Notes under the pieces: generated by a model
Databases searched by the model: none
Seen by the model: the letters and a program-made list of their open reading frames with translations, nothing else
What the model was told of the DNA's origin: nothing
Position numbers and translations under genes: made by a program
In this document: positions 705-7,506 of the stretch, piece after piece
Position numbering within the stretch: position 1 is the first letter of the stretch
Layout of the letters: the number at the start of each line of letters is the position of its first letter
Assembly: GCA_001799735.1 (NCBI GenBank)
Contig: MGUA01000033.1
Coordinates: 1 to 64,000, forward strand
Direction of reading: 5' to 3'
Source of the DNA: Elusimicrobia bacterium GWB2_63_22
GTDB lineage: Bacteria; Elusimicrobiota; Elusimicrobia; Elusimicrobiales; UBA9959
Length of the DNA stretch: 64,000 nt

Positions 705-3700
705 TTATTTCTCTTCGGGGTTTTCGCCCAGCTCTTTCAGGGCGGTCTTGAGCGCCTCCTCGTGGCGGCGGCTTTCCAGCGGGGCCAGCAGGCTGTAGGC
801 GCACGGCACCACCAGCAGCGTCAGCACCGTCGAGAGGAGCACGCCGCCGATGACCACCAGGGCCATGGGAATGCGCGTCTCGGCGCCGGGGCCGTAGCCC
901 AGCGCCGGCGGTATGGCCGCCGCTATGGTGGCGAAAGAGGTCATCAGGATGGGCCGCAGCCGTATCGGGCAGGCCTCCAGCAGCGCCGCGTCCACGCCAA
1001 GCCCGCCCGCCCTTCGGCGGTTGTTGGTGAAATCCACCAGCAGGATGGAATTCTTCTTCACGATACCCATCAGCAGGATCAGGCCTATCATGCTGTAGAT
1101 GCTCAGGGAATACCCGCCCAGCTTAAGCGCTATGAAAGCGCCCGTCAGGCTGAACGGCAGCGCCAGCAGCACCGTGAACGGGTGCAGGAAGCTGTTGAAC
1201 TGGGAAGCCAGGATCATGTACGCCACGAACACGCCCAGGATCAGGGCGAAGGTGAGGCTGGAGAAGGATTCCTGGAAAGTTTTAGACGTGCCCGAGAAGA
1301 CCACCCTGTAGCCGTCGGGCAGTATCTCTTTCGAGAGGCGCTCCACTTCCTTTATGGCCTGCTCCTGCGAAGAGCCCTGCGCCACGTTGGCGAACACGCC
1401 GATGGCGCGCTCGCGGTTCTTGCGCGAGATGGTCAGCAGCGTGGTCTTCTGCTCCACCTTCACCACTTCGGAGAGGCGGATCACTTCCCCCCGGTTGTTG
1501 CGCACCCAGATCTTGTTGATGTCCTTAGGGTCGCTGCGGTCGCGGCCCAGCAGCTGCACGCGGATGTCGTAGCGCTTGCCGCCGCGGGTGAACTTGCCGG
1601 CGCGCACGCCGCCTATCATGGAGTTCACCGCGTCGCCTATCGACGAGACCGACACGCCGCGGGCGGCCGCCTTTTCGCGGTCGGGCACCACCTGCACTTC
1701 CGGCATGCCTTCCTGGTAATCGGTGTCCACGTCGGTCATCCGGCCGGAGGCCGTCATCTGCTCCATCAGCAGGCGGCTGTAGTCGCCCAGCTTCTCCCAG
1801 TTGGGGCCGCGCACGCTGAACTCCACCGGGAAGCCGCGCTGCGCCGTAAAGCCGCCGAGCGACGGGTCCTGTATGGCCACGCGCCGCACGCCGGGTATGG
1901 CGTTGAGCGGCTTGCGGGCGTAGCGCATGAACTCCTGCTGGGTCGGGGGCCGTTTCTGGCCCGGCAGCGGCACGCGCTCGGCCGGGGGCTTCATGGCTAT
2001 CATCAGCATGCCCTGGTTCACCTGGCCGCCGCCGAAACCGCCGGTATTGGCCATGAAGGTGCGGATGTTCGGCTGGGCCATGGCCCACTTCTCGGCCTCT
2101 TCCATGGCCTTGGCCGTAACGTCCAGCGGCGTGCCTACCGGCATCTGCACGCGCGCCAGGAAGCGGCTCTGGTCCTGCGCCGGCGAGAACTCCTTGGGAA
2201 TGAACCTGATGAGCGACATCGAGGCCGCGAAGACCGCCAGCGAGACCATTATAACGGTCCAGCGGCGCCGCAGCAGCCGGCCCAGCAGGGACGCGTAAGA
2301 TACCCGCGCCCTCTCCATCAGGCCGTCCATCGCGCGGCCTATCCACAGCCCTCGCTCCGCGTCCACGAACTGCGAGCAGCGCATCGGCGTCAGGGTCAGC
2401 GCCTCCAGCAGCGACAGCATGACCGCCGCCGTCATGGTGACGCCGAACTGGAAGAAGAACTTGCCTATGATGCCCTGCATGAACACCACGGGCAGGAAGA
2501 TGGCGAGGATGGCGATGGAGGCGGCCATGGCCGGGAAGGTCATCTCGCGCGCGCCCAGGATGGCGGCGCGCACGCGCCCCTCCCCCTTTTCGTTATGGCG
2601 CACTATGTTCTCCAGCATCATGATGGCGTCGTCGACGACTATGCCTATGGCCAGCGTCAGGCCCAGCAGGGTGAAGGTGTTGAGCGTAAAGCCCATGAAG
2701 TAGAGGACGATAAAGGAGCCCACGATGGAGGTCGGTATCGCCAGCAGCACGTTGATGGTGGACGACCAGGAGCCGAGAAAAAGCCAGCACACGACCGAGG
2801 TCAGGATGACCGACAGCACCAGGGTGAAATTCAGTTCGCGGGTGGATTCCTCGATGAACCGGGTGGAGTCGTTGACGATCTCCAGGTGCATCCCTGCCGG
2901 CAGGGTCTTCTTGATCTGCTCCAGCCTGGACTTGACCAGCTTGGCTGTGGCCACGGCGTTGGAGCCGCGCTGCTTCTTGATCCCCAGGCCCACGGCGCGC
3001 CGGCCCCAGTTGCGGGTGATGCGGCGCACGTCGGCCAGCCCGTCCTCCACCTTGGCCACGTCGCCGATATGGTAGGTGCGCCAGATGGCCGAGCCGCCGC
3101 GCCCGGCTATCACGATGCGCGAGAAGGCCTCGGGCGTGGGGGCCTCGCCCAGCACGCGCACGTTCAGCTCTTTCTTGCCGGTATCGATATAGCCCGCGGG
3201 CTGCTCCGCGTGCTGCGCCGAGATGGCGCCCAGCACGTCGGTGACCGTCAGCTGGGCCGCGTCCATCCTGTTGGAGTCCAGCCAGACGCGCAGGGCCGGG
3301 TCCACGTAGCCCCCCATGCTGACTTCGCCCACGCCCTCCACGATGCTGAGCTGGTCGCGCAGCACGTCGTTGGTGTAGTTCATCAGGTCCGTTACGGGCC
3401 TGTCGCCGGAAAGGGCGATCCAGATGATCGGCTGGTCCTCGGGGTTGGTCTTGGTCACCACCGGGGGGTCTATTTCCTTGGGCAGGTTGCGCGCGGCCTG
3501 GGAAACCTTGGCCTGCACCTCCTGCATGGCGTCGTCTATGTCGTGGTTCAGCTCGAACTCCAGCGTGATGCGCGCCGAGCCCCTGCGGGAAGAGGAGGAG
3601 ATGTCCTTGATGCCGGCGATGGTCATCACCGCGCTTTCCAGCACGTCGGTGACCTGCGTCTCCATCACCTCTGGGGCCGCGCCCTCCAGGGAGACGCTGA

Positions 3701-3839
3701 CGTTGACCACCGGATAGTCCACGTCGGGCAGCTGGCTGATGCCCATGCGTTCAAAGCTGATGGCGCCGAAGACTATCAGCCCCAGCATCAGCATCCAGGC
3801 GAAGACGGGGCGTTTTATGGAGAGGTCGGATAAGGTCAT
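705..3839 (-). CDS. RND-family efflux transporter (AcrB/MexB-like, HAE1 type)
   Basis: At 1044 residues this is the normal length for an inner-membrane proton-driven RND pump. It opens with the typical LSIKRPVFAWM amphipathic segment and first membrane helix. The transmembrane proton relay is intact: D403 and D404 in GIVVDDAIMMLEN, and the helix-10 lysine in GIVKKNSILLVDF. Two large periplasmic porter loops flank the helices. It overlaps the upstream tolC-like gene by 4 bases (ATGA), so the two are translationally coupled. A periplasmic adaptor gene, normally part of such operons, is absent here. Substrates cannot be predicted. Confidence 0.95.
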   Translation of the reverse strand: MTLSDLSIKRPVFAWMLMLGLIVFGAISFERMGISQLPDVDYPVVNVSVSLEGAAPEVMETQVTDVLESAVMTIAGIKDISSSSRRGSARITLEFELNHDIDDAMQEVQAKVSQAARNLPKEIDPPVVTKTNPEDQPIIWIALSGDRPVTDLMNYTNDVLRDQLSIVEGVGEVSMGGYVDPALRVWLDSNRMDAAQLTVTDVLGAISAQHAEQPAGYIDTGKKELNVRVLGEAPTPEAFSRIVIAGRGGSAIWRTYHIGDVAKVEDGLADVRRITRNWGRRAVGLGIKKQRGSNAVATAKLVKSRLEQIKKTLPAGMHLEIVNDSTRFIEESTRELNFTLVLSVILTSVVCWLFLGSWSSTINVLLAIPTSIVGSFIVLYFMGFTLNTFTLLGLTLAIGIVVDDAIMMLENIVRHNEKGEGRVRAAILGAREMTFPAMAASIAILAIFLPVVFMQGIIGKFFFQFGVTMTAAVMLSLLEALTLTPMRCSQFVDAERGLWIGRAMDGLMERARVSYASLLGRLLRRRWTVIMVSLAVFAASMSLIRFIPKEFSPAQDQSRFLARVQMPVGTPLDVTAKAMEEAEKWAMAQPNIRTFMANTGGFGGGQVNQGMLMIAMKPPAERVPLPGQKRPPTQQEFMRYARKPLNAIPGVRRVAIQDPSLGGFTAQRGFPVEFSVRGPNWEKLGDYSRLLMEQMTASGRMTDVDTDYQEGMPEVQVVPDREKAAARGVSVSSIGDAVNSMIGGVRAGKFTRGGKRYDIRVQLLGRDRSDPKDINKIWVRNNRGEVIRLSEVVKVEQKTTLLTISRKNRERAIGVFANVAQGSSQEQAIKEVERLSKEILPDGYRVVFSGTSKTFQESFSSLTFALILGVFVAYMILASQFNSFLHPFTVLLALPFSLTGAFIALKLGGYSLSIYSMIGLILLMGIVKKNSILLVDFTNNRRRAGGLGVDAALLEACPIRLRPILMTSFATIAAAIPPALGYGPGAETRIPMALVVIGGVLLSTVLTLLVVPCAYSLLAPLESRRHEEALKTALKELGENPEEK

Positions 3840-5077
3840 GGTTTAAGTTCCGCGCCGGCGGCGGTTTCCAGCCGGATCAGCGCCAGGCTGTTGCGGGCCC
3901 GCGCCTGGGAGAGCGCCAGCCGCGTCTGCTGGGCCGTGTTCAGGGCGCTCAGGACGTCCAGGTTGTTCACCAGCCCCAGTTTGTAGTCTTCCTGCTGCAG
4001 GCTGGCGTTCTCGTCGGCCAGGGTGAGCGCGTCGGCCAGGCTTTCGGTCTGCTTTACGGCGTATTCGTACTCCTCGTAGGAGGAGCTCACGTCGGAAAGA
4101 GCCTGCCTCTGCGCCAGGTCCAGCGCCAGCTGCGCGGCGCGCCGGGCGGAATAAGCGTATTCTTTTTTTCCCTGCAGCAGCCCCCCGGTATAGAGCGGGA
4201 CGTTGAGGTAGGCGCCGGCGTCCCAGCGGTTGACCGGGTCCGGCGTGGGGGTGCGCACTACGTAATAATTGGCGGACAGGTTTACCGAGGGCCACTGCCC
4301 TCTCTCCTGCAATTCGGCCAGGTAGCCCGAAGCCTCCGCCTCGCGGCGGCGCGCCTGCAGGTCGGGGCGCCTGAGGGCAAGTTCGCGGTAAGTCTGCAGC
4401 TCCGCCGCCCCGCGGGCGGGCAGCTCGGCCGGGGCCAGGTCTTCCGAAAGGCCCGTCATGAACTTGAGCGCCTGCTGCGCCAGCCTTTCCTCTGAAAGGG
4501 CGGCCAGGTAATCGGCCTTGTCCCGCGCCAGCTGGGACCGCGCGGACACCACCTCGCTGCGCCGGGAGCGGCCGATGGCCGCCCTGGCCTCCAGCTCGGC
4601 GATGCGCTTGGCGGTGACGGCCAGCTGGTCGGCGCGGATGAACACCTCGCGCTGGGCGGCCAGCAGGTTCAGGTAGGCCTGGGCCGCGGAAAGGTAAAGC
4701 TGCTGCCTGGCGCGCTCCAGGTGCAGGCGGGCCGCCCCGGTATGCGCCGAGGCGGCTTTCGCGGCGGTGTAATCCCTCATCCCCGAGAAAAGGCCGTAGC
4801 TGCCCGAGAAGTAGCCCTTGGTCGCGGCGTCGGCGTTCTGCTGTTTGGAAAGGGAAGCGTTAAAATCGAAAGAGGGGCGGAAAGCCGAGGCCAGCTGCCG
4901 CTCGGCCGCGTCCAGCTGCGCCGCCCCCTCCGCCTGCTGCGCCAAAGCCTCGCTGCGGCCCAGGGCCAGGGCGTAGGTCCCGCCCAGCGAGACAGGCCGC
5001 ATGCCAGCGGTAGTGAATTCCTGCGCGGCGGAGGGCCCGGGGCAAAGGAGGACAAGCGTCAGAAGAGCTTTTTTCAT
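3836..5077 (-). CDS. TolC-like outer membrane efflux protein
   Basis: The 413-residue protein has a signal peptide (MKKALLTLVLLCPGPSAAQ). Two repeated halves rich in Ala/Leu/Gln coiled coil match the OEP domain that builds the TolC trimer channel. Segments such as LALRRPDLQARRREAEAS and YTGGLLQGKKEYAYSARRA match conserved OEP positions. It is the first gene of the pair with the RND pump. There is no Shine-Dalgarno sequence before the ATG. A TAGAAT -10 box (5085-5090) ends only 7 bases upstream of the start, so the mRNA may be leaderless. Confidence 0.92.
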   Translation of the reverse strand: MKKALLTLVLLCPGPSAAQEFTTAGMRPVSLGGTYALALGRSEALAQQAEGAAQLDAAERQLASAFRPSFDFNASLSKQQNADAATKGYFSGSYGLFSGMRDYTAAKAASAHTGAARLHLERARQQLYLSAAQAYLNLLAAQREVFIRADQLAVTAKRIAELEARAAIGRSRRSEVVSARSQLARDKADYLAALSEERLAQQALKFMTGLSEDLAPAELPARGAAELQTYRELALRRPDLQARRREAEASGYLAELQERGQWPSVNLSANYYVVRTPTPDPVNRWDAGAYLNVPLYTGGLLQGKKEYAYSARRAAQLALDLAQRQALSDVSSSYEEYEYAVKQTESLADALTLADENASLQQEDYKLGLVNNLDVLSALNTAQQTRLALSQARARNSLALIRLETAAGAELKP

Positions 5078-5122: not shown

Positions 5123-6214
5123 TTACTTCTTTATAAGGTGCCAGACTATTTCGGAAGCCTTGGAGAGATGCTCGAGCAAAATATATTCGGTCTTAGCCTG
5201 CGGGTTCTTTACCCCGATGCCGAAATTGACGGCGGCCACGCCCCTGTCATTGAGCGCGTTGGCCTCGCTGCCTCCCGGGGCTGGGACGGCCGCAGGCGGG
5301 AGCCCCGCGCCTCTCAGCGCCTCCTCGGCCAGGCGGCGCACTTCGCAGCCCGGCTGGTGCGCGTAAGGCGCGAAATCCCAGGACCACTTGAACGCCGCCG
5401 CCCCGCCGGCCGCGGCCGCGGCGGTCTCAAATTCGGCTTTTATCCTGTCTAATATCGGTTTGGCGTTTTCCTGCCGGGAGGCCCGCACCTGGCCCCTGAC
5501 CATGGCGGCCAGCGGCACGGTGCCGGTAGCGGAGCCGCCGGCGATAGTGCCCGCGTTGGACGTGGTCTCTCCGTCATGCCGGCCGAACTTCAGGGCGGAC
5601 AGGGCCTGGGCTGCGATGGCTATCGCCGAGACGCCGTTCTCGGGTTCGGCGGCGGCGTCGGCTGCCCGCCCCAGGATATCGGCGGAGAAGACGGCCACGC
5701 CGTGGGAGGAGACCGTGTAGGAGCCGGGGTCCAGCGGGGAGTCGAAAACAAAGCCGCAGCGCACCCCTTCGGGCAGGCCCAGGTGCTTCACGCCGGCCAT
5801 GTTCCCCCTGCCGCGGGTTGTGAAAGCGATCGTGAACGGCTTGAGCGGGAGATTGGTGTTGATGGCCCGTTCCAGGGCGTAAAGTATCGCCGCGATGCCG
5901 GCCCGGGCGTCGACGCCGAGCGGGCTCTTGCCGTCCGAGGCCGCGCGGTCAGGAGTGAGCGCCGGGATGGTGGAGGACGTGTACTGCGCCGTATCCATAT
6001 GGGCGAGCAGCACAAAATTGCCGCCTCCCCCCACGCGGCAGACTACGTTGCTGGTGTTGGAGAGCGCGGCCGCGGCCGTGTTGTCGAGCTGTACCGGCAG
6101 GCCGAGGTTCTTGAGGAAGGCGAAAAGATACTTCGCCACCTCGGCTTCTTTGCCGGGCAGAGCGTCTATGCGCGCCACCTCCAGGAACAGGTCCACCAGC
6201 CTTCTGCTTGCCAT
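5123..6214 (-). CDS. PepT/YqjE-type M20 peptidase homologue lacking catalytic residues
   Basis: The 363-residue protein aligns throughout with PepT-like M20 peptidases. It keeps the first metal motif (H72 and D74 in AHMDT), the bridging Asp (D102 in GVDARAG) and the third metal Asp (D158). Three key sites are lost. The catalytic Glu pair (EE in GEESG or DEEVG) is replaced by Gly-Arg in TTRGRGNMAG. The terminal metal His is Q339 (NPQAKTEYI where relatives have IHTTNEKI). The substrate-binding His of the dimer domain is Asp (AADAAAEP for TAHAG). It follows intact pepT by 15 bases, with a GGAG site before the ATG. A regulatory or binding role is possible; classical peptidase activity is unlikely. 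Confidence 0.85.
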   Translation of the reverse strand: MASRRLVDLFLEVARIDALPGKEAEVAKYLFAFLKNLGLPVQLDNTAAAALSNTSNVVCRVGGGGNFVLLAHMDTAQYTSSTIPALTPDRAASDGKSPLGVDARAGIAAILYALERAINTNLPLKPFTIAFTTRGRGNMAGVKHLGLPEGVRCGFVFDSPLDPGSYTVSSHGVAVFSADILGRAADAAAEPENGVSAIAIAAQALSALKFGRHDGETTSNAGTIAGGSATGTVPLAAMVRGQVRASRQENAKPILDRIKAEFETAAAAAGGAAAFKWSWDFAPYAHQPGCEVRRLAEEALRGAGLPPAAVPAPGGSEANALNDRGVAAVNFGIGVKNPQAKTEYILLEHLSKASEIVWHLIKK

Positions 6215-6229
6215 TGGGTTCTCCAGGGG

Positions 6230-7462
6230 CTACTTAGCCCATTCCCGGACCAGGTTGACCACCACCTCTGCGGATTTGTTCATCCCGTCCAGCGAGACCC
6301 ATTCATAGCGGCCATGGTAGTTGTAGCCGCCGGTGAAGATGTTGGGCGTGGGCAGGCCCATGAAGGAGAGCCGCGCCCCGTCGGTGCCGCCGCGCACGGG
6401 CTTAACCCGGGGTTCAAGCCCTGCCTGCTTTACCGCGGCTTTCAGGTTGGCCATCACCAGGGGGTGCTTTACGATAACTTCCTTCATGTTTCGGTACTGT
6501 TCCCGGAAGGCAAGGTCGATCCTGGCCAGCGGGTATTTGAGACGCTTGGCGGCGACGATGGCCTCGAGCTGGCGCTCCATGGCTTTGAGCTTCTTCAGGT
6601 CGTGGTCCCGCACTATGCCGGAAACCTCGCCCTTTTCGGTCTCGCCGGCAATGTCCATGAACATAATGAACCCCTCGTGGCCGGCGGTGGCTTCGGGGAT
6701 CATGTTCTCGGGCCAGGATGAGACTATATCGGCTACGATGCGGGTGGCGTTGGCCATGGCGTTCTTGGCGGAGCCGGGGTGCACGCTCTTGCCGGCCACC
6801 TTTATGACCACAGAGTCGGCGTTGAACGTCTCCTCTTCTATGGAGCCGGCCACGTCGCCGTCCACGGTGTAGGCGTAATCCGCGCCGAAGGCCTTCACGT
6901 CGAAGTATTTGACGCCCTGGCCTACTTCCTCGTCGGGCGTGAAGCCGATCTTCAGCGTGCCGTGAGGGATCTCCGTGTGTTTGAGCAGGTATTCGGCGGT
7001 CGTCATGATTATGGCGAGGCCGGCCTTGTCGTCCGCGCCCAGCAGGGTATCTCCCGAGGCGGTGACGATATCGTCGCCCTTGCAGAGGGAGAGCTTGGGG
7101 CAGTTCTTTTCGTTGAGGATGACGCCGTGCTTGCGGCTGATGACGATGTCGCCCCCCTTCCAGGCCTTATGCAGCTGCGGCCGCACGCCTTTGCCGGAGG
7201 CGTCGGGGGAGGTATCCACGTGGGCCAGCAGGCCGATCACCGGCTTTTTGCCCTTCACGGTGGCGGGGATCTCGGCGGTGACATAGCCGTGTTTATCCAG
7301 CTTCACTTTTTTCGCGCCGATAGCCTTCAGCTCCGCCGCCAGCAGTTTAGACAGCGTCAGCTGTTTTTTTGTCGAAGGGAAGGTCTGGGATTTGTCGTCA
7401 CTCTGGGTGTCCACGCGGGCGTATTTGTCCAGCCGCCTGTAAAGGGTTGCCTTAAGGTCCAT
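6230..7462 (-). CDS. pepT: Peptidase T (tripeptide aminopeptidase)
   Basis: This cytoplasmic di-zinc M20 enzyme releases the N-terminal residue of tripeptides. All signatures are present: H81 and D83 in AHVDTSPD, the bridging Asp in LGADDKAG, the catalytic Glu pair in TPDEEVGQG, YTVDGD, KSVHPGSAK, and GGTDGARLSF with the final metal His in GGYNYHGRYEW. An upstream in-frame ATG at 7487-7489 exists. The start at 7462 is preferred because GGAGGAAAC precedes it and the protein then begins MDLKATLYRRLDKY like its relatives. The degenerate paralogue at 5123-6214 follows in the same unit. Confidence 0.95.
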   Translation of the reverse strand: MDLKATLYRRLDKYARVDTQSDDKSQTFPSTKKQLTLSKLLAAELKAIGAKKVKLDKHGYVTAEIPATVKGKKPVIGLLAHVDTSPDASGKGVRPQLHKAWKGGDIVISRKHGVILNEKNCPKLSLCKGDDIVTASGDTLLGADDKAGLAIIMTTAEYLLKHTEIPHGTLKIGFTPDEEVGQGVKYFDVKAFGADYAYTVDGDVAGSIEEETFNADSVVIKVAGKSVHPGSAKNAMANATRIVADIVSSWPENMIPEATAGHEGFIMFMDIAGETEKGEVSGIVRDHDLKKLKAMERQLEAIVAAKRLKYPLARIDLAFREQYRNMKEVIVKHPLVMANLKAAVKQAGLEPRVKPVRGGTDGARLSFMGLPTPNIFTGGYNYHGRYEWVSLDGMNKSAEVVVNLVREWAK

Positions 7463-7477
7463 GTTTCCTCCGTAGAA

Positions 7478-7506
7478 TTGTCCGCCCATCGCAAAAAGGA
7501 TATAAT
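7478..7506 (+). promoter_or_regulatory. Sigma-70 type promoter for the PhoU-like/PiT operon
   Basis: TTGTCC (7478-7483), a 17-base spacer, then a perfect TATAAT (7501-7506). The start codon at 7538 follows, with AAGGAG at 7525-7530. No Pho box was recognised. Confidence 0.8.

Follow-up and report, generated by a model that had tools for sequence, protein, structure and literature searches.

The PepT-like gene and its immediate neighbours

Our analysis concerns a gene encoding a PepT-like protein in a 64,000-nucleotide stretch of the genome of Elusimicrobia bacterium GWB2_63_22 (contig MGUA01000033.1; the whole stretch is called the window below), where it lies directly behind a complete pepT gene. 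The features of the locus are the following:

5123..6214, minus strand: PepT-like pseudoenzyme gene (group B, defined below), 363 aa, recognised by its frame, profile matches and residue alignment
About residues 172-284 of the PepT-like protein: lid (dimerisation) domain
6215..6229, minus strand: 15-base spacer from the pepT stop to the ATG of the PepT-like gene, with GGAGA at 6220-6224 as the likely ribosome site
6230..7489, minus strand: pepT (tripeptide aminopeptidase PepT), complete, with the catalytic residues present (PRK05469, 528 bits, cut-off 255)
3836..5077, minus strand: gene downstream of the PepT-like gene, which we take to encode a TolC-like outer membrane protein

The PepT-like gene starts with ATG, five bases behind GGAGA, and its frame is intact, so that the coordinates, the ribosome site and the distance of 15 bases from pepT reported in the first-pass annotation were all borne out, with the strand being minus. 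According to the profile searches, the product matched the TIGR01883 'PepT-like' model end to end (residues 5-361 of 363, E 2.1e-58), scoring 198 bits against a cut-off of 274, a cut-off that does not discriminate here because two other proteins of the genus, a residue-intact paralogue (266) and the catalytically complete A form (242), also score under it. The Pfam domains were M20_dimer (40.1, cut-off 21) and Peptidase_M20 (24.7, cut-off 24.6), and the best solved relatives were 3gb0 (E 5.4e-42) from B. cereus and 3rza (PepT2) from S. aureus. Both structures are assigned to MEROPS M20.018 in the excerpts of PMC10394242 used here, where biochemical information on this subclass is stated not to exist. 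The score against TIGR01882, the model of PepT proper, was 26.7 bits, far below the cut-off of 285.75. The earlier designation as a PepT-family pseudoenzyme thus holds with regard to the M20 pseudoenzyme, but the family is the PepT-like TIGR01883 rather than that of PepT proper. An origin as a duplicate of pepT was rejected, as the TIGR01883 match is far better than the PepT match and a second PepT-like gene of the same genome encodes the residue-intact paralogue (30% identity). By these matches, we assign the window protein to the PepT-like family (TIGR01883, M20.018 type) and do not regard it as a copy of PepT. It shares with the M20.018 peptidases end-to-end homology and the two-domain M20 layout with a lid, but lacks their catalytic Glu, second metal ligand, lid His and terminal His. 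With peptidase T proper (TIGR01882, M20.003), which is a separate family and catalytically intact by its residues, it shares the M20 fold and, through the adjoining gene, the same likely operon.

Distribution and grouping of the PepT-like copies

We compared 32 genomes of the genus, including that of the window, and 340 genomes of the phylum Elusimicrobiota. Two contigs (L033 and L034), duplicates of contigs in G006 and G027, were excluded from every count. A member of the family was found at E<=1e-60 in 21 of the 32 genus genomes and at E<=1e-50 in 23 of the 340 phylum genomes, all of the latter from this genus or one sister genus; neither PepT-like form was detected at E<=1e-60 in seven genus genomes that bear pepT (G004, G008, G016, G017, G023, G029 and G031). 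The copies could be sorted into three groups. The dead form, to which the window gene belongs, is group B and comprised 14 copies in 13 of the 32 genus genomes, and group A, with every catalytic residue present, comprised eight copies in eight genomes. Group I, of intermediate character, consisted of three copies, an additional one in G003 and one in each of the sister-genus genomes G033 and G145; in this group, E135 is replaced by G, D102 by A or N and the lid His by R, and E136 is retained. Two different pairs of pepT and a dead PepT-like gene (L044, L039) occurred in G018, a bin with 7% contamination, possibly from two mixed strains.

Catalytic residues lost and kept

Alignment with relatives gave the substitutions E135G, E136R, H186D and H339Q in the window protein, with H72, D74, D102 and D158 retained; these positions were matched to the general base and the metal ligands on what we take to be established knowledge of the M20 family. 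The alignment confirms what had been read from the single sequence, namely the change of the Glu pair to Gly-Arg, of the terminal metal His to Q339 and of the dimer-domain His to Asp. The Glu pair (the general-base Glu and a Glu metal ligand) is missing in all 14 B copies: position 135 is G or A throughout, and position 136 is R, K, A or C, with G135-R136 in the window protein. Likewise, the lid His is replaced by D186 in 14/14 copies, and position 339 is His in none of them, varying among Q, L, K, R and G between species. As a consequence of the substitutions at 136 and 339, only D102 is left in 14/14 copies of the second metal site, formed by Asp, Glu and the terminal His. Since these losses are shared by 14 copies from 13 genomes, all with open frames, they go beyond chance.

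As for the residues kept, H72 is retained in 13 and D74 and D102 in 14 of the 14 B copies, while D158 is retained in six and is otherwise G, S or A depending on the species. The earlier statement that three metal-binding residues are kept is therefore correct for the window protein but does not extend to the clade. A different set of residues is new in the B copies and fixed in 14/14, namely D186, Q242, K276 and E317, and several lid residues (N220, R212 and T217) are invariant. All 14 copies carry a basic residue at position 134, and in 12 of the 14 a Lys or Arg has taken the place of a former ligand of the second metal (136 or 339), a level matched by 208 of 20910 comparable column pairs in a statistic that ignores phylogeny. 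Basic residues at 134 and at 136 or 339 would fit a pocket that is stabilised without the second metal, and the protein would probably lack the metal pair.

The losses extend beyond these sites. Eighty positions are fixed in group A (seven rows, leaving out the G025 copy, which is split over two contigs) and also reach 90% conservation or more across 35 rows of canonical paralogues. Of these, 17 were lost in most B copies, and 15 of the 17 were polar, compared to 19 of the 63 retained positions (Fisher p 3.7e-5). Because most of the lost core positions are polar and the residues at 136, 158 and 339 differ among species, the old pocket is unlikely to bind a single conserved ligand.

Gene neighbourhood and the cyanophycinase cassette

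The order of genes at the locus is aldolase, flavoprotein, PiT and PhoU-like genes (on the opposite strand), pepT, then either B or a series of A, cyanophycinase and YfcC-like transporter, followed by TolC and RND; the names aldolase, flavoprotein, PiT, PhoU-like, TolC and RND are our presumed assignments. A TetR gene is also found at the locus in some genomes (Pfam). Group B lies directly 3' of pepT in 14/14 cases, with gaps of 1-16 bases, and group A adjoins pepT in four of its eight genomes. Copies located away from pepT thus number 0/14 for B, 4/8 for A and 2/3 for I, in counts that ignore phylogeny.

In all eight A genomes, the A gene is followed by a cyanophycinase gene and then by the YfcC-like transporter gene, and in A loci these two genes intervene between the PepT-like gene and TolC. 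An example of this cassette lies at L046:6025-9361, and seven other genus genomes have the same. The cyanophycinase was identified by TIGR02069 (163 bits, cut-off 126.6), and it occurs in eight of the 32 genus genomes, which are exactly those with A; its N-terminus resembles a signal peptide, as judged by eye. The transporter scored 374 bits with the YfcC profile, below its cut-off of 500, and 327.7 bits with Pfam DcuC (cut-off 23.1), which makes its place in that Pfam family secure; a close homologue was present in the same eight genomes and only distant ones in G002 and G008. Neither the cyanophycinase nor the close transporter was found in the 13 genomes carrying only B. Genome G003 has the A cassette on one contig and the I copy beside pepT on another, and the two sister-genus genomes that carry I copies yielded no cyanophycinase (0/5 genomes searched). 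Searches for the known dipeptidases returned no IadA over the cut-off in the 32 genus genomes, and hence none in the eight with the cassette, and IaaA (PF01112) in two of the 32, one of them a cassette genome (G022). Cyanophycin synthetase over the cut-off was likewise found in 0/32.

Clusters composed of a cyanophycinase, an isoaspartyl dipeptidase and a transporter are described as scavenging systems in the portions of PMC10206079 drawn on here, which also describe the dipeptidase of some phyla as undiscovered. The A relatives of the window gene resemble these clusters in sitting with a cyanophycinase and a transporter, with no cyanophycin synthetase over the cut-off; they differ in that an M20.018 peptidase would replace IadA, IaaA or the M14 enzyme, and the window genome itself does not have the cluster. 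Because IadA reaches its cut-off in 0/8 and IaaA occurs in 1/8 of the cassette genomes, and some phyla are described as having a dipeptidase yet to be discovered, the A protein is a fair candidate for a beta-Asp-Arg hydrolase, the dipeptidases searched for being IadA and IaaA. Our literature search on Elusimicrobiota and cyanophycin found no paper.

Phylogeny of the copies and of the locus

In the tree built from all columns, the dead copies grouped together in a single clade (95/95) placed among the intact copies, with group B at 100/100. When 20 functional columns were removed, support was 95/100 for B and 100/99 for I but only 44/80 for their union, and a topology joining I to A stayed acceptable (p-AU 0.56). 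Given the low support for the union without functional columns and the survival of the topology joining I to A, the tree is consistent with the loss of the catalytic Glu either once or twice. The residue-intact orthologues in eight genomes, a finding that the first-pass annotation had named as refuting its proposal, form a separate group tied to the cyanophycinase cassette; they show the ancestry of B and do not refute its status as a pseudoenzyme.

The RND and TolC neighbours were also compared (window 705-5077, L035-L058 and L124-L132). Both neighbours exist in two versions, very different in the case of RND, which is 91-96% identical to that of the window in some genomes and 67-77% in others, independently of A or B status; local recombination at this locus appears likely. 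The pepT tree gave no resolved genus order (18 of 26 inner branches open), and given this tree and the likely local recombination, we make no claim about the number of cassette losses.

Selection on the PepT-like gene and on pepT

Codon models were fitted with our own implementation, which gave a log-likelihood of -3703.53 compared to -3703.65 from IQ-TREE on the same set. The split G025 copy was excluded from these models, and the pepT of G005, whose frame is broken, was excluded from the pepT models and from the pepT co-evolution analysis. In G005, pepT (L035:4796-5997) is split into two frames near codon 370, through an assembly error or in reality, and the adjoining dead PepT-like gene is intact.

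The branch model gave a dN/dS of 0.080 for B, 0.079 for A and 0.28 for the B stem, and other fits gave 0.070-0.073 for B. For pepT, the values were 0.050 in B genomes (13 rows, without G005) and 0.060 in A genomes. Since many B branches, the deep ones in particular, are saturated at synonymous sites, the closest pairs were given most weight. The nearest pair, G010 and G007, differed in B by 69 synonymous and 18 nonsynonymous codons; its dN/dS was 0.046 for B and 0.043 for the adjacent pepT, and an omega of 0.5 was rejected (2dlnL 97.7). Decay of B, with open frames in 14/14 copies and a dN/dS of 0.07-0.08, is thus rejected by the codon models. The check proposed in the first-pass annotation, conservation of the substitutions and dN/dS in relatives, accordingly came out in its favour, with the losses at 135, 136, 186 and 339 present in all 14 B copies and strong constraint, and none of the 14 B frames was broken in the way that would have pointed to a decaying gene.

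The sister-genus I copies (L056 in G033 and L094 in G145) differed by 13 synonymous and 22 nonsynonymous codons, with an omega of 0.50 that is hardly separable from 1 (2dlnL 3.5). One of the two has a frameshift near codon 323, and neither has a pepT on the stretches covered. These orphan dead copies look relaxed or decaying. Dead copies can therefore apparently decay, whereas the B copies beside pepT have not, a contrast drawn from one I pair.

Within B, the lid (residues 172-284) was more tightly constrained than the rest of the protein (dN/dS 0.058 vs 0.081, 2dlnL 17.7); in A, the lid showed no extra constraint (0.085 vs 0.077). In pepT, the lid evolved more slowly than the rest in B genomes only (0.042 vs 0.054, 2dlnL 6.3), the corresponding values being 0.0565 vs 0.0571 in A genomes and 0.053 vs 0.046 in genomes with neither form. 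Relative conservation of the pepT lid was likewise higher in B genomes (0.867 vs 1.046), in a weak result from a one-sided, post hoc permutation test (p 0.034). Distance correlation with B was 0.60-0.76 for pepT, depending on the set, and 0.63-0.75 for the other neighbours, so that B showed no more co-evolution with pepT than with its other neighbours.

Possible roles of the retained protein

The dN/dS of 0.07-0.08 over 14 copies and the comparison with pepT in the same pair give good support to the proposal that the gene was retained for a non-catalytic role, and we are confident that B encodes a selected non-catalytic protein. Its ancestor would have been an aminopeptidase of the PepT-like type (M20.018), complete in its catalytic residues and encoded after pepT in a cassette with cyanophycinase and the YfcC-like transporter and probably acting on beta-Asp-Arg dipeptides freed by cyanophycinase. 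In one lineage, the cyanophycinase and the transporter have disappeared, and the protein no longer has its catalytic Glu, its lid His, the second metal site or a number of further polar residues in the core, with the gene staying within a few bases of pepT and the fold core, the lid more than the rest, under strong purifying selection. The retained protein most likely has a non-catalytic job: it would dimerise through its lid and serve to scaffold, stabilise or regulate a peptidase, for which PepT would be the first candidate. On balance, we favour this account as a whole.

A role as a partner protein, one of the examples offered in the first-pass annotation, appears compatible with the data, and we tentatively consider PepT as the direct partner, a suggestion that carries clearly less confidence than the account in which it stands. 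It is opposed by the distance correlation, which is no better for pepT than for other neighbours, by the weak signal in the pepT lid, and by the adjacency to pepT, which is inherited from the residue-intact form (A adjacent in 4/8). A structure predicted from three sequences gave a pLDDT of 34. The lid-domain His is stated to be important for Acy1 in PMC4012986, and B, having no such His, could not act across a dimer to complement PepT's active site as is known for Acy1. Because a partner without the lid His cannot lend a His to PepT, an active complementing heterodimer is unlikely, and stabilisation, inhibition or scaffolding would fit better. A more specific version, in which a former cyanophycin-dipeptide hydrolase lost its pathway, acquired basic residues in place of the second metal and was captured through its lid domain as a dedicated non-catalytic PepT subunit, is speculative and in our view unlikely.

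Instead of serving a peptidase, B could be a self-contained homodimeric structural protein that is made together with PepT only through inheritance of the operon. The adjacency of A to pepT in 4/8 genomes and the unexceptional co-evolution of B and pepT would suit this explanation, but B is never found away from pepT (0/14, compared to 4/8 for A and 2/3 for I, phylogeny being ignored), and we consider it somewhat unlikely. An unlikely reading, too, is that of a ligand-binding protein whose old cleft binds a peptide or an amino acid in a sensor or sequestering role, with no contact with PepT. The near-complete retention of H72, D74 and D102 and the invariance of N220, R212 and T217 would agree with it; however, the predominantly polar losses in the core (15/17) and the variability of 136, 158 and 339 between species oppose it, and the peptide sensor suggested earlier is weakened insofar as it would use the old pocket, whose once catalytic positions hold different residues in different species. 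An altered enzyme, in which a pocket rebuilt with the basic residue at 134, D186, Q242 and E317 catalyses another reaction, is very unlikely: the newly fixed residues, K276 included, point in its direction, but all 14 copies lack the general-base Glu and the second metal site, and neighbouring positions vary between species where fixation would be expected. Finally, a slowly decaying, functionless relic of the lost cyanophycin pathway is scarcely credible, since the absence of the pathway genes from 13/13 B-only genomes and the relaxed appearance of the sister-genus orphans are outweighed by the open B frames, the low dN/dS and the excess of synonymous differences in the nearest pair.

Comparison with known systems and significance

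The favoured account, of a former peptidase that now serves a peptidase without catalysis, has a counterpart in the alpha subunit of the mitochondrial processing peptidase (MPP), which, in the sections of PMC11266112 considered here, exemplifies a dead subunit that can serve an active one and has two-gene prokaryotic counterparts. The two cases have in common an inactive homologue kept under selection; they differ in that MPP belongs to the M16 family and its partner is shown, whereas PepT is only a candidate partner of the window protein. In the same sections of that pseudometallopeptidase review, 'M20' occurs only in reference strings and no M20 pseudopeptidase is described, and our literature search for M20 pseudopeptidases or pseudo-subunits found no earlier report, which is no proof of absence. 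If the dedicated PepT subunit were true, it would be the first such M20 pseudo-subunit as far as this search goes.

Pseudopeptidases are already known, and what the present case would add is an unusually complete evolutionary series. The birth of a pseudoenzyme is usually rebuilt from deep and incomplete comparisons. This genus and its sister together contain the intact form in its cassette, Glu-less intermediates, the conserved dead form at pepT and orphans that appear to be decaying, and the role of the retained form could be tested by comparing those states. The residue-intact form is, in addition, a candidate for the enzyme that completes the use of cyanophycin, and it belongs to a subclass, M20.018, reported to be without biochemical information (excerpts of PMC10394242), and the A cassette protein may represent a new kind of cyanophycin dipeptide hydrolase.
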